DNA of 12,200 nucleotides, from assembly GCA_002401525.1 (NCBI GenBank), contig NVTH01000212.1, positions 1-12,200 of the forward strand, read 5' to 3'. The position numbers were made by a program, and so were the translations under genes. This stretch comes from Moraxellaceae bacterium (GTDB taxonomy: Bacteria > Pseudomonadota > Gammaproteobacteria > Pseudomonadales > UBA3067). Of the stretch, positions 7,214 through 11,984 are shown piece after piece. Each line of letters starts with the position of its first letter. Positions within the stretch are counted from its first letter, which is position 1. Under the pieces are notes generated by a model. The model was not told where the DNA came from and did no database searches. It saw only the letters and a list, made by a program, of their open reading frames with translations.

Positions 7214-9736
7214 GTGATAAAACGAGTAATGTATTGGGTTGCGTTGTTGGCAGCGAGCCTTTGCTGCAGCCTTGTAGTTGGCAATGACTTTGTTAGTAAA
7301 GACTTTATTGTAAGCGGTGTTATTGCCGATGACTTTCCCGCCGATGATTTTGCCCAAATCGACAGTTCAGAAGAAAAGGTCAATGTTGGTTTGTTTTTGA
7401 AATATTTCGAGGACGCTGAGCAGCAGCTGACGATAAAGAACGTAGATACTTTGCCTATTCTCGGGCAGTTCAAGAAATACCAAGGCAAGGTATTTAATGC
7501 CGGTTATTCTAAATCAAATTATTGGCTGCATTTTGAATTCCAGGTGAATGATCTCGAAAATCATGAATTATCGCGCTATTTGGAGATTGATAATTCTCTG
7601 TTAGGCGTTTTAGAAATCTATCAGCGTAATTCAGAGGGTGGTTTTGAGGTAATCAAAACAGGCGTTAATAATTATACCCACTCCGCGCTTATTCATTACA
7701 GCTCATACCTTTATCCGCTGAAATTTGCTAGCAATGAGCCAATGGAGTTTTTTATTAAAGCGTCATCGTCATCGTCGGTGACTGTGCCGATCTATTTGTG
7801 GCGTCCGGATATATATCTGAAGAGTAAGTCAGATCAAAGAATATTCTACGGTATTTTATACGGCATTATGTTGACGATGTGCATTTATAACGTATTTTTA
7901 TTTTTTGCGATTAGGGAATCATGCTACTTATTTTACAGTTTATACGTGATCGCAATTCTGTCGATCGTGAGCGCTTACAGTGGAATTACAGCGCAATATT
8001 TCTTAAGTAATTCCCCGCTAATGTTGACCCGTTCAGTTTCGATAAGCGGAATGTTGGCAATCTATTTTTCTTGCCAATTCACGCGAGGTTTTTTACACAT
8101 AGAAAGTTATAGTCCTAGAGCAGATCAAGTATTTAACCGTTTTTCACAGTTGATGTTAATGATGATTCCGCTTCTTTGTATTGAATTTATTCGTGAGAAA
8201 ATAATATCGGTGTCGGCGGCCTTGCCGTTGCTTTGGATAGCGATAAGCTTTTGGGTAGGACTATTGGCCTTGAAAAATAACATCCGAGAGGCTCGATTCT
8301 ATATCGCCGGATGGGCCATGTTACTTATCTCTATTTTGGTTTTGGTGCTGAGCCTATTTGATGTGTTCCCAGTAGGATTTTATTCTGAACATGGCTTTAA
8401 AATAGGCGTGGTATTGGAGTCAATCGTTTTCGCCTACGCACTAGCAGATCGAACCCATAATATGCAACGAGAAAGAGTCATGTTGCAAAAGTCAGTGCTG
8501 CAAATTTCAGAGCGCAGCAACAAAATTAAAGATGAGTTTCTTGCCACGATAAGTCATGAGTTTCGCACGCCGATGAATGGCGTATTGGGCGCATTACAAA
8601 TGATGCGATCAGTACCAGTCTCTAACGAAGGCGTTAGGTACTTGAAAATTGCTAACCGATCAGCGTCTGATATGATGGACATTATTGATGGTATTCTAAA
8701 TTTTACTGAGGTTCGATCGGGAAATCTAAAAGTTAAGAAACAACAGTTTGCGCACCTCGATTTAGTCACTAAAATTACTTGGATTTATCAAAAGAGATTT
8801 AAAGAGAAAGGATTGAAGTTCGAAACTAAATTCTCTGCTGAAACGGATCAATTGGTTAATGGCGATATGGAAAAGATTGAACAAGTCATCGTCCAAGTGC
8901 TTGATAATGCCTTAAAATTTACCCATGAGGGATCTGTTAGTTTTGAGGTGAGCGGTTCGCTGAGTGAGGATGGAAACGAAATTGGCATCAATTACTTGGT
9001 GTCTGATACAGGCGTAGGCATCACCGAAGAGAGAAGCGAGCAGGTTTATGAGGCTTTTCGGCAACAAGACTCTTCAAATACCCGCGCATACGGTGGCCTC
9101 GGTATTGGGATGGCGATTAGTCGACGACTATTAGAATTAATGGACGGCAGCATTAGCTTTTCTGGAAACGATGGTGGTGGGACGGTATTTGAGATTGCGA
9201 TAGTGTACGAGATATACCGAAGGCCAATGAGTCAAGCCAAGGACGATATAAGACGCAAAAAAATTGAAGCTAATCGTAAATCTAATTCAGAACCTGGCCA
9301 CATAGCAGTCAATTCCAGAATTCTTGTGGTGGAAGATAATCTTGTCAATCAAATGATATTAAAGTCGATGCTCAAAAAAATGGGTTATCAGACGTTGGTA
9401 GCCGGTAATGGCCGAGAAGCGGTTGTTTTGCTCGAGCACGAGACTGTGGATGCTATTCTGATGGATTGTCAAATGCCTGTAATGGATGGATATGAAGCCA
9501 CACGAGAAATTCGTTGCTTGACCAATAGCAATTGCGATAAACCAATCTTAGCGGTAACAGCCAATGTGATGGCCACTGATAGGGGGAAATGTTTAGAGTC
9601 AGGCATGGATGATTATATTAAAAAACCTGTCAGCACGGAAATTATTAAAGAAAAACTAGATCATTGGCTGAGCCCTGAGCACGCGTTAGCTCGTGGTAAA
9701 GGTAAGCCTGATAGCAATACAGATTTGGAACATTAA
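7214..9736 (+). CDS. 7TMR-DISM hybrid sensor histidine kinase
   Basis: This 840-residue inner-membrane sensor passes phosphate from His to Asp. Visible parts in order: signal-type hydrophobic segment (about 5-23); periplasmic 7TMR-DISMED2-type sensory domain (about 55-198, with NYWLHFEF at 102-109); seven membrane segments (about 210-412); HisKA with phospho-acceptor His448 (ISHEFRTPMNG); HATPase with N box Asn565 (DNALKFTHEG), G1 DTGVGI at 598-603 and G2 GGLGIGMAIS; and a receiver (about 701-820) with acidic pair Glu707/Asp708, phospho-acceptor Asp751, Thr782 and Lys804. No HPt domain follows, so a separate HPt protein is expected. The start used is GTG at 7214; ATG at 7229 (MYWVALLAASLCC) is an equal or better candidate, as neither has a strong Shine-Dalgarno. 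The gene ends 46 nt from convergent csgG. DISMED2 domains often sense carbohydrate-like ligands, so control of surface behaviour is plausible, but a link to curli is only proximity. Confidence 0.93.
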   Translation: MIKRVMYWVALLAASLCCSLVVGNDFVSKDFIVSGVIADDFPADDFAQIDSSEEKVNVGLFLKYFEDAEQQLTIKNVDTLPILGQFKKYQGKVFNAGYSKSNYWLHFEFQVNDLENHELSRYLEIDNSLLGVLEIYQRNSEGGFEVIKTGVNNYTHSALIHYSSYLYPLKFASNEPMEFFIKASSSSSVTVPIYLWRPDIYLKSKSDQRIFYGILYGIMLTMCIYNVFLFFAIRESCYLFYSLYVIAILSIVSAYSGITAQYFLSNSPLMLTRSVSISGMLAIYFSCQFTRGFLHIESYSPRADQVFNRFSQLMLMMIPLLCIEFIREKIISVSAALPLLWIAISFWVGLLALKNNIREARFYIAGWAMLLISILVLVLSLFDVFPVGFYSEHGFKIGVVLESIVFAYALADRTHNMQRERVMLQKSVLQISERSNKIKDEFLATISHEFRTPMNGVLGALQMMRSVPVSNEGVRYLKIANRSASDMMDIIDGILNFTEVRSGNLKVKKQQFAHLDLVTKITWIYQKRFKEKGLKFETKFSAETDQLVNGDMEKIEQVIVQVLDNALKFTHEGSVSFEVSGSLSEDGNEIGINYLVSDTGVGITEERSEQVYEAFRQQDSSNTRAYGGLGIGMAISRRLLELMDGSISFSGNDGGGTVFEIAIVYEIYRRPMSQAKDDIRRKKIEANRKSNSEPGHIAVNSRILVVEDNLVNQMILKSMLKKMGYQTLVAGNGREAVVLLEHETVDAILMDCQMPVMDGYEATREIRCLTNSNCDKPILAVTANVMATDRGKCLESGMDDYIKKPVSTEIIKEKLDHWLSPEHALARGKGKPDSNTDLEH

Positions 9737-9782: not shown

Positions 9783-11177
9783 TTACAAAATGGGGTTGTT
9801 TTGGATTTTTCGAACCCAAGGTTGATAAGATTTAAGCTTTGGCGGAAGCTTCTGTAATGCATCGCGAGCCGCTTGTTTCGTGGTATATTTTCCTACAGTT
9901 GCTGCATACCACCTTTTTCCTTCTTTGATAAACTCGATGTAATTAATTTGATTTGGGTTGAGACCATTTTCCGTAATGAAGGGGGCGATGGCTTGTCGAT
10001 TGGAGGTGGCCACTAATTGCACGGTATAAAATTGAATATTTTCGGGTGACGAGGAATTGTTTGGGCGAAGGTTCGCTGAGTTATTTTGTTTTTGTTGCGG
10101 TTTCGGTTGAGACTGAGACCGAGATTGGCCTTCGGGCTGATTTTTATTTTCGGAAGAGCTTTGTTTTGTATTGCTTGAATTCGGCGAGGTGTTTTTTGAG
10201 ATCGGTGGTGCCGCAGTCATTGGTGGAGGTGACGGTGATGCTAATGTATTGGCGGTTGCTGAGTTTTCTTCCGTCGGTGCTTTCAATAGCGACCGGCTAT
10301 TCGCTAGCCAGTGGTCATTGCTATAGGCTTTGATAATGGGGTGGTTTAAATCGTTGGGGTCATTTAAACCCCAATTTCGTTTATGAATCCCGGTGACAAT
10401 TAGACGAATAACGGCAGATTCGATGGCGTCCAACACGATCACTTGGGTGGGTTCATTGCGTGTGAATCCCGTTTCAAGTTCAAGTAAGCGTTTAAATTTG
10501 ACGAATCGAAACACCCCAAAATTGACTTGTACGGATAGAATTGCGCGCGTTACCGAGACCGAATTGACAATTTTTCCAGAATAGATGTCAACGGCTCTCA
10601 AGCTGATGGTCACTTGATCAACGCGGTATTGTTCTGAACCGCCTATGCCGAAGTATTTGGCCCCCATGCCACCGGTTCGTATGTCTGTGTCGTAGGCAAT
10701 TATTCCACCTTCGATAATAATGTTGGCGCCTAATAAAGGGTTTAAATCAGCATTGGGCTGGGTTTTTTTTAAGGTGGCACGAATGATTTTTCGCTCGGTT
10801 AAAATGTTTTGTAGACCTTCACGCTCTACCGGGATAAACCATCCCGAATCCTCTAGCGCACCGACTAACATTGCACTGGCGCCTTGGGTTACGGCCGTCG
10901 AAAAAGAACTTGCGGGTGGGGGTTTGTATTGACCCGTTTGATCCCTGAATCCGTAAACAGCAGTGACTATTCGTCCTTGGGATTGAGGTAAATTAATTAG
11001 GTCCATGTGAATGTCGCTAGGGGTATCCCAGTCGCGAATTTTATGCAGCGGGCCCACTAAATGATCGCTAATAGTTTTTGATACGGAGCGGGTCATTTGG
11101 CAGCCGCTCAGTATTACAGAATTCAATAAAAGAAAACTAAACAATAATCCAATTGATCGATATTTGAATAAATCCAT
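9783..11177 (-). CDS. csgG: CsgG curli secretion lipoprotein with C-terminal SPOR domain
   Basis: CsgG forms the outer-membrane pore that exports curlin subunits. Residues 1-26 are a lipoprotein signal ending in the lipobox LSGC (Cys26). Residues about 60-272 align well with E. coli CsgG, with landmarks such as ASSFSTAV, GWFIPVEREGLQNILTERKI, AKYFGIGG, GVFRFVKFKRLLE and NEPTQ. The protein is unusually long: 464 residues against 277. About 295-378 is a low-complexity linker rich in S, P, Q and N. About 381-458 is a SPOR-type domain (FYTVQLVATSNRQA, then GKRWYAATVGKYTTKQAA and LPPKLKSYQPWVRKI) resembling that of DamX. SPOR domains bind peptidoglycan stripped of stem peptides. The gene lies 7 nt after csgF, so coupled translation is likely; the Shine-Dalgarno is weak. 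The pore eyelet region reads KPPPASSF where E. coli has KPYPASNF. The fusion is continuous in one frame with no sign of an assembly break. Confidence 0.95.
   Translation of the reverse strand: MDLFKYRSIGLLFSFLLLNSVILSGCQMTRSVSKTISDHLVGPLHKIRDWDTPSDIHMDLINLPQSQGRIVTAVYGFRDQTGQYKPPPASSFSTAVTQGASAMLVGALEDSGWFIPVEREGLQNILTERKIIRATLKKTQPNADLNPLLGANIIIEGGIIAYDTDIRTGGMGAKYFGIGGSEQYRVDQVTISLRAVDIYSGKIVNSVSVTRAILSVQVNFGVFRFVKFKRLLELETGFTRNEPTQVIVLDAIESAVIRLIVTGIHKRNWGLNDPNDLNHPIIKAYSNDHWLANSRSLLKAPTEENSATANTLASPSPPPMTAAPPISKNTSPNSSNTKQSSSENKNQPEGQSRSQSQPKPQQKQNNSANLRPNNSSSPENIQFYTVQLVATSNRQAIAPFITENGLNPNQINYIEFIKEGKRWYAATVGKYTTKQAARDALQKLPPKLKSYQPWVRKIQNNPIL
10044..10295 (-). repeat. Low-complexity S/P/Q/N linker within csgG
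   Basis: This stretch encodes roughly residues 295-378 of CsgG, between pore and SPOR domain. It contains short iterations such as SPSPPP, SRSQSQPKPQQKQ and repeated S/N runs, and few hydrophobic residues, as expected of a disordered spacer. In the DNA, near-repeats such as GAGACTGAGACCGAGA on the plus strand suggest slippage-prone sequence, so its length may vary among strains. Confidence 0.75.
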
Positions 11178-11184
11178 TTCTATT

Positions 11185-11637
11185 CTAAAAACTTGATTCT
11201 ACGCTAAAGGTCGTTGCCTCTCCGGTAATGCGGTCGGTCGTCGATACTTGGACTCTACCATCGCCAAGATCAATTATATCGATAATAAAATCGGTGGTTT
11301 CCGTCTGGCCTGGAATTAAATTTCCTTCTTCGTCGACAAATGTTTGAGAAAGTGTATTTGTGAGCCGATTAAGCAGTGCTCGTTGCAGGCGATCATTGAA
11401 TTCTTCCAAAGGACTAATCTCATCATCTTCTTCTTGAGCGGGGTCTTTTAATTTATTTTGTGCTTGAGCTGAATTCATTAGCACGCTGCCATTCAGGTAG
11501 TTACCACCGAATGAAGGGTTATTAGGGACATAAATTAATGAGGAAGCGAGCAGTGATGCGGGCGTTAAAAGTCCAAAAACTATTGTTATAAATACTAATC
11601 GAATGAGGGGAGGGCGGCCAATCTTTTGATACTTCAT
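11185..11637 (-). CDS. csgF: Curli assembly factor CsgF
   Basis: CsgF binds the CsgG pore at the cell surface and promotes curli nucleation and anchoring. The 150-residue protein (E. coli 138) has an N-terminal signal peptide of about 31 residues, with likely cleavage at SLLA/SSLIY. This gives the mature start SSLIYVPNNPSFGGN, which has the same length up to FGGN as E. coli CsgF. Family landmarks follow: NPSFGGN (40-46), LMNSAQAQN (53-61), then an acidic segment PAQEEDDE and a C-terminal region DFIIDIIDLGDGRVQVSTTDRITGE like the E. coli [25 protein letters not shown]. In E. coli, csgE precedes csgF; here no csgE is seen upstream. The gene is 7 nt ahead of csgG, so the two form an operon. The Shine-Dalgarno is weak (ACAGG, distant), and the start fits the signal peptide. 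Mature position 17, the constriction Asn in E. coli, is Leu here. Confidence 0.94.
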   Translation of the reverse strand: MKYQKIGRPPLIRLVFITIVFGLLTPASLLASSLIYVPNNPSFGGNYLNGSVLMNSAQAQNKLKDPAQEEDDEISPLEEFNDRLQRALLNRLTNTLSQTFVDEEGNLIPGQTETTDFIIDIIDLGDGRVQVSTTDRITGEATTFSVESSF

Positions 11638-11729: not shown

Positions 11730-11984
11730 TTAAGCGTTTATAGTCACTACTTCAGTGTAGTTGATAGGCATTGACCGTGCTGAATTTGGCGGGTTGAAGG
11801 TTTTGGCTTTATCTTCTTTGGAGGGGAACGTTGTTTTCAGTTTTAGTCTTAAGTTGATGTTCAGATCGATGTTCGGCTTTAGTTTTTCGTATTTGTAACG
11901 TTACCATTCGTCTGGTGTCATATCAGGATCAAACCGTCGTCCACGTTGATTGTTTTGATGGGGTAAGTTGGGAGTGCGGGGGCT
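11730..11984 (-). pseudogene. Possible decayed small ORF between curlin and csgF
   Basis: On the minus strand one frame stays open for 27 codons (11984-11904), hits TAA at 11901-11903, then stays open for another 56 codons to TAA at 11730-11732. The two halves read as if continuous: PHQNNQRGRRFDPDMTPDEW, stop, RYKYEKLKPNIDLNIN and onward to NYTEVVTINA. If the TAA were CAA the frame would be uninterrupted for 84 codons. No ATG opens the first half except the internal one before TPDEW, and a different frame carries an ATG inside the nearby hairpin. The composition looks like a basic, soluble peptide, but no family was recognised. Open frames of this length can arise by chance, so the call is weak. 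Confidence 0.3.

Follow-up and report, generated by a model that had tools for sequence, protein, structure and literature searches.

Each subunit of CsgG, the secretion pore of the curli (type VIII) system, bears an N-terminal lipid and crosses the membrane with two hairpins, such that both of its termini are placed in the periplasm. On this periplasmic side CsgG is capped by CsgE (PMC7304575), and as the E. coli protein has been purified with C-terminal tags as a pore complex with CsgF (PMC7304575, PMC6957492), additions to the C-terminus are tolerated. The word "peptidoglycan" is absent from the main text of these CsgG-CsgF structure papers, as are SPOR domains from the main text of a 2012 survey of curli systems, which reported that CsgG size does not depend on how large CsgA is and included systems devoid of csgE (PMC3521004). 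In the literature we examined, nothing was encountered that would determine where on the cell curli pores are placed. SPOR domains studied so far bind glycan strands free of stem peptides, a ligand enriched at the septum, and in the 2019 account of this interaction they are confined to proteins of division and morphogenesis (PMC6895207). For the SPOR domain of DamX the same account presents Q351, S354 and W416 as key to septal localization and describes a basic patch comprising R380 and K418 (Alcorlo 2019, PMC6895207).

The window analyzed here is a stretch of 12,200 nucleotides that constitutes a complete contig of a draft genome (G000). It codes for a CsgG protein with a C-terminal SPOR domain (hereafter CsgG-SPOR; Table 1) in one uninterrupted frame running from an ATG at 11177 to a stop codon at 9783-9785. 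The match to the CsgG profile scores 238.4 bits against a cut-off of 20.8 and extends over positions 3-207 of 210, thereby covering the whole domain, and in sequence comparisons with the PDB residues 55-285 align to E. coli CsgG (E 9e-69). The lipobox typical of the CsgG family was read from the sequence, and the glutamine at +2 fits outer-membrane sorting under the +2 rule for lipoproteins. As the score with the NCBIfam CsgG equivalog model PRK15184 is 255 bits against a cut-off of 505, we place the protein in the CsgG family only, outside that equivalog. In the tail, the SPOR profile match reaches 38.6 bits against a curated cut-off of 21, and residues 373-459 align to the SPOR domain of DamX (PDB 2lfv; E 3.7e-6). 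Consequently, the single frame, lipobox, full CsgG core, linker and SPOR domain named in a preliminary description of this DNA were all recovered; the linker, put there at about 85 residues, is present but slightly longer, at about 95, with pLDDT under 50 throughout residues 287-380.

Table 1. Features of the curli locus in the window (strand and positions as in the 12,200-nucleotide stretch)
Feature	Position	Strand	Basis
csgG-SPOR, 464 aa; subunit of the curli secretion pore, with SPOR at the C-terminus	9783..11177	-	frame, Pfam and PDB sequence matches
Lipoprotein signal peptide, residues 1-26, lipobox LSG-C26, Q at +2	11100..11177	-	by eye from the sequence
CsgG core, residues 63-270	10368..10991	-	Pfam PF03783, E 6.5e-71; own-genome search, identical coordinates
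S/P/Q/N-rich linker, residues 287-380, predicted disordered, fast evolving	10038..10319	-	pLDDT under 50 (AlphaFold); residues 295-380 30% identical to G001
SPOR domain, residues 383-457, DamX-like	9807..10031	-	Pfam PF05036, E 1.4e-9; own-genome search, identical coordinates; fold; Q387 and W454
csgF, 150 aa, 7 bases upstream of csgG-SPOR	11185..11637	-	Pfam PF10614, E 1.9e-29
csgE remnant, 3' end (about a dozen codons and stop; remainder absent)	11901..11942	-	12-residue match
Curlin (csgA/B-type) gene, 3' end, cut by contig end	12013..12200	-	Pfam Curlin_rpt, E 1.6e-12, 3 stretches

The architecture occurs in five genomes, that of the window and four others (G001, G024, G064 and G015), which represent three families of one gammaproteobacterial order and carry the gene in curli operons; all five are draft assemblies (74, 89, 98, 87 and 81% complete for G000, G001, G024, G064 and G015, respectively). 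The protein from G001, which belongs to the same genus as the window, is 73% identical to CsgG-SPOR over residues 2-378 and has its SPOR domain within the same 510-residue frame; those of G064 and G024 match residues 16-461 and 28-461, and in G015 the core and SPOR matches lie within one frame of 542 residues. As the same architecture is seen in four other genomes, it is neither a chance nor an assembly accident, and this recurrence, together with the conservation of SPOR beyond the linker, leads us to reject an artefact of frame or assembly. A first search for relatives encompassed 95 genomes, the window's own included, among which the three other genomes of the window's family, from another genus, gave no match whatever. 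Across 390 genomes of the order a close CsgG was found in 35, and five of these 35, the same five, have a SPOR domain; the main CsgG frames of the remaining 30 are 283-386 residues long, the absence of SPOR being judged by frame length alone for G294, G159, G242 and G311 (366 residues). A second draw of 389 genomes of the order, the same set minus G000, returned no further CsgG-SPOR. Every genome examined from the families of G024 (2/2) and G015 (1/1) possesses it.

Six of 369 genomes of the class contain a close CsgG; of these, the window's genome alone has SPOR, and the other frames are 261-308 residues long. Named genomes gave at least 568 confirmed CsgG loci, and in the 80 of them that were kept there was neither a SPOR match at E 0.01 nor a long tail like that of the window, the longest extension being the CsgF-like tail of L003 (see below). 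From 398 genomes of the phylum, 122 of which have a CsgG-family match, 12 of the longer frames showed no SPOR by Pfam. Taken with the absence of any description of CsgG joined with SPOR from the open-licence literature that we searched, these counts (0/80 kept loci and 5/35 genomes with a close CsgG) lead us to reject a common, already described architecture and bear out its presumed rarity. A separate case of tail extension was seen in L182 (G866), where CsgG ends in 211 residues rich in Pro, Ala and Thr, with no Pfam domain at E 0.1.

We then examined the SPOR domain itself. In a full-length AlphaFold model built with five sequences the core was poorly modelled (mean pLDDT 41.6), and the SPOR block displayed a predicted E-H-E-E-H-H-E succession with pLDDT of 73-88; modelled alone (93 residues, alignment of 23 rows) the domain reached a mean pLDDT of 86 and a pTM of 0.73, with the RNP-like beta-alpha-beta-beta-alpha-beta fold characteristic of SPOR. 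Among solved structures, the DamX SPOR domain 2lfv matches best in both the sequence and the Foldseek comparison and is the first row in VIA-align, in agreement with the resemblance originally proposed, and a weak or chance match is ruled out by the Pfam E of 1.4e-9 along with the Foldseek and structure comparisons. A Burkholderia exported protein (6ozd) scores close to DamX SPOR in the comparisons with solved structures. By alignment, the places of DamX Q351, S354 and W416 are taken by Q387, A390 and W454, and those of the basic patch residues R380 and K418 by K418 and R456. RlpA likewise has an alanine at the place of S354. Q387, the conserved glycan-contact glutamine, and W454 are invariant in all five CsgG-SPOR proteins and in the 23 aligned SPOR rows. 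The place of DamX R380 is more variable, with Lys in G001, Val in G015, His in G024 and Leu in G064, and the Pfam scores of the relatives range from 28.3 bits in G001 to values below the cut-off of 21 in G015 (20.2), G024 (17.1) and G064 (14.6). Based on the retention of the glutamine and tryptophan ligand residues, we consider it quite probable that the tail binds denuded glycan.

In a tree of 111 CsgG rows built from the core, with linker and SPOR omitted, the five CsgG-SPOR proteins lie on one side of a branch with an SH-aLRT of 88, and in a tree of 23 SPOR rows they also group together (91/77; 88% of 200 bootstrap trees), supports which in both trees fall short of the tree program's star. 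In the core tree, named rows from Microbulbifer, Pseudomonas and Modicisalibacter group with genomes of the window's order, which is on this ground probably Pseudomonadales in GTDB. Furthermore, a one-residue insertion in SPOR is shared by all five CsgG-SPOR proteins and found in none of 18 other SPORs. As the window SPOR is 31-35% identical to those of the other CsgG-SPOR subclade, no higher than its 27-35% identity to other SPORs, a single origin rests on the trees and the insertion, and the simplest reading of these sequences would be one fusion in the common ancestor of the five.

Past residue 285, the tails of the 111 CsgGs have a median length of 9 residues, against 179-257 in the five, 93 in G150 and at most 50 in the others; linkers in the relatives, estimated from tail lengths, have roughly 120 to 175 residues. 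Between G000 and G001 identity is 90% in the core, 30% in the linker and 72% in SPOR, and between G024 and G064 it is 90, 41 and 84%. The corresponding pN/pS values, which serve as a ranking only as dS is saturated, are 0.09, 0.72 and 0.21 for the first pair and 0.07, 0.59 and 0.11 for the second. That SPOR is constrained past a drifting linker, in each of the two pairs, speaks for a functional domain carried on a tether.

The genome adjoining the five in the core tree, G150 (support 94 for all six), has a different tail: its CsgG (L139:6735-7874; the same gene in L003) bears, where SPOR would be, a copy of the C-terminal domain of CsgF that is 48% identical over 62 residues to its own CsgF and matches Pfam CsgF below the cut-off (E 0.0037). 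A complete csgF adjoins this gene, and inspection by eye showed no ORF for csgE in the stretch from curlin to csgF. In E. coli the C-terminal part of CsgF is extracellular, whereas the C-terminus of CsgG should be periplasmic. A 1008-residue usher-like protein of G009 (L195:4164-7190) ends in a DamX-like SPOR (E 2.3e-9), the label deriving from its DUF4402 neighbors and a chaperone-like neighbor (a PapD_N match below cut-off), with no Pfam usher match. In a 194-genome sample of the order its body is matched in six genomes, the other five matches stopping at residues 835-876, before SPOR. This protein is possibly another exporter of fibres that ends in SPOR.

As for genomic context, csgF and a curlin gene lie beside csgG in the window, as in curli systems, and between them only a remnant of csgE is found, its 12-residue match scoring 47, a value to be set against a maximum of 30 over 60 mononucleotide shuffles; we do not count csgE as defining, since curli systems without it have been published. 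No CsgE was found at E <= 1 in the window's genome, a draft that is 74% complete. G001 has an intact csgE where the window, from the same genus, has the remnant. In G001, G024 and G015 the curlin genes, csgE, csgF and csgG-SPOR are close together, and in G064 csgF lies beside csgG-SPOR and the contig ends 210 bases further. The retention of both csgE and csgF in three of the four relatives suggests that SPOR goes with the usual accessory proteins and disfavors the earlier suggestion that it stands in for them. Scans for promoters (3 sites versus 4.9 expected) and terminators (6 versus 3.1 expected, all six on the + strand) gave none usable for the operon. On its other side, csgG is accompanied by a 7TMR-DISM hybrid histidine kinase in G000 (7214-9736 of the window), G001 (L135:9485-11869) and G150 (L139:3878-6706), and by a guanylate cyclase-FHA protein at the same place in G024, with a similar ORF seen by eye in G064; these neighbors are possible curli regulators.

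Taking these observations together, we propose, with a probability of roughly 0.6, that CsgG-SPOR forms a curli pore from which up to nine SPOR arms extend in the periplasm and hold it at denuded, mainly septal, peptidoglycan. The core would form the usual, presumably nonameric, ring in the outer membrane, and given the predicted topology up to nine SPOR domains would hang beneath the pore, each reaching the wall over its linker of about 95 residues. There they would bind glycan strands without stem peptides, such as amidases produce at the division septum, and several weak contacts might together provide avidity. The pore and the curli base would thereby be expected to concentrate, or be retained, at septa and young poles; we rate such septal or polar enrichment as slightly favored over its absence. 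More tentatively, and at somewhat less than even odds, curli export might be wired to division, with SPOR capture of amidase-made glycan confining the installation or retention of pores to septa and new poles, and with fibres growing from the junction of the daughter cells. If so, no earlier curli system would have had a wall-targeting module of its own, and the module would have been retained from the ancestor that the three families share.

The main rival to septal placement is a plain mechanical anchor, in which the arms would hold the pore and fibre base against shear on any denuded glycan with no special septal placement. It calls for an anatomy identical to that of the septal reading and is consistent with linkers that are long and change quickly, as tethers might; moreover, attachment of secretion channels to peptidoglycan is known, in modes that vary (PMC9239104). 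However, the glycan bound by the SPOR domains studied is enriched at the septum (PMC6895207), and many other peptidoglycan-binding domains could serve for pure anchoring, on account of which we regard this alternative as unlikely, though deserving serious attention. It is considerably less probable that the SPOR is a protein-protein module, contacting division or peptidoglycan-synthesis proteins or the substrate path in place of glycan: the invariance of Q387 and W454 in all five proteins speaks against this, even if the SPOR proteins DamX and DedD also interact with peptidoglycan synthases (PMC7642682) and the domains of G015, G024 and G064 have drifted.

Two further explanations have little to commend them. 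That the fusion is neutral, or an assembly artefact without function, might be entertained given that every member comes from a draft assembly, but five assemblies with differing linkers, SPOR conservation past the diverged linker in two independent pairs and the kept ligand residues render it very improbable. We give even less credence to the idea that SPOR took over from an accessory protein, for instance CsgE, that had been lost. The remnant gene and the failure to find CsgE in the window's genome would be in line with such a loss, but that draft is incomplete, and the co-occurrence of CsgE with CsgG-SPOR in G001, G024 and G015 indicates that SPOR came first and is compatible with CsgE. We accordingly retain a pore held at mainly septal glycan as the preferred reading. 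With a natural CsgG that has a domain of the septal-glycan type, one can ask directly, at the level of a domain, whether amyloid secretion is affected by placement.

CsgG-SPOR can be compared with several known systems. Like E. coli CsgG (PDB 4uv2, 4uv3, 3x2r, 6l7c) it is a lipoprotein, aligns along the core and is adjoined by csgF; unlike the E. coli protein, which ends soon past the core, it has 179 residues beyond residue 285, including SPOR. At the columns of the E. coli pore residues Y51, N55 and F56 it has P, S and the same F, respectively. Across the 111-row MAFFT alignment of CsgGs these columns hold Y in 1, N in 9 and F in 110 rows. It shares with DamX the glutamine and tryptophan of the SPOR domain, but DamX is a cell-division protein, and the NCBIfam DamX equivalog model scores only 22.4 bits here against a cut-off of 256. 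RlpA, which is present with a C-terminal SPOR in the window's genome (L147), is likewise a predicted outer-membrane lipoprotein with this domain (PMC6895207), but it is a lytic transglycosylase and not a pore. In PilQ the peptidoglycan-binding domains of an appendage pore are required for recruitment of the pilus machinery to midcell and future division sites (PMC5285504); those, however, are N-terminal AMIN domains serving type IV pili, whereas here a C-terminal SPOR serves curli. The domain is thus taken beyond proteins of division and morphogenesis. Legionella LspD, a type II secretin, is another secretion channel of the outer membrane that incorporates SPOR (PMC9239104, PMC6617341), but it belongs to another channel family and carries the domain N-terminally, before N0, rather than on a C-terminal tether. 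Hence, SPOR on a secretion channel is not new, but with respect to the literature searched its CsgG version is, and CsgG becomes the second channel family, after LspD, in which the pore carries this domain.
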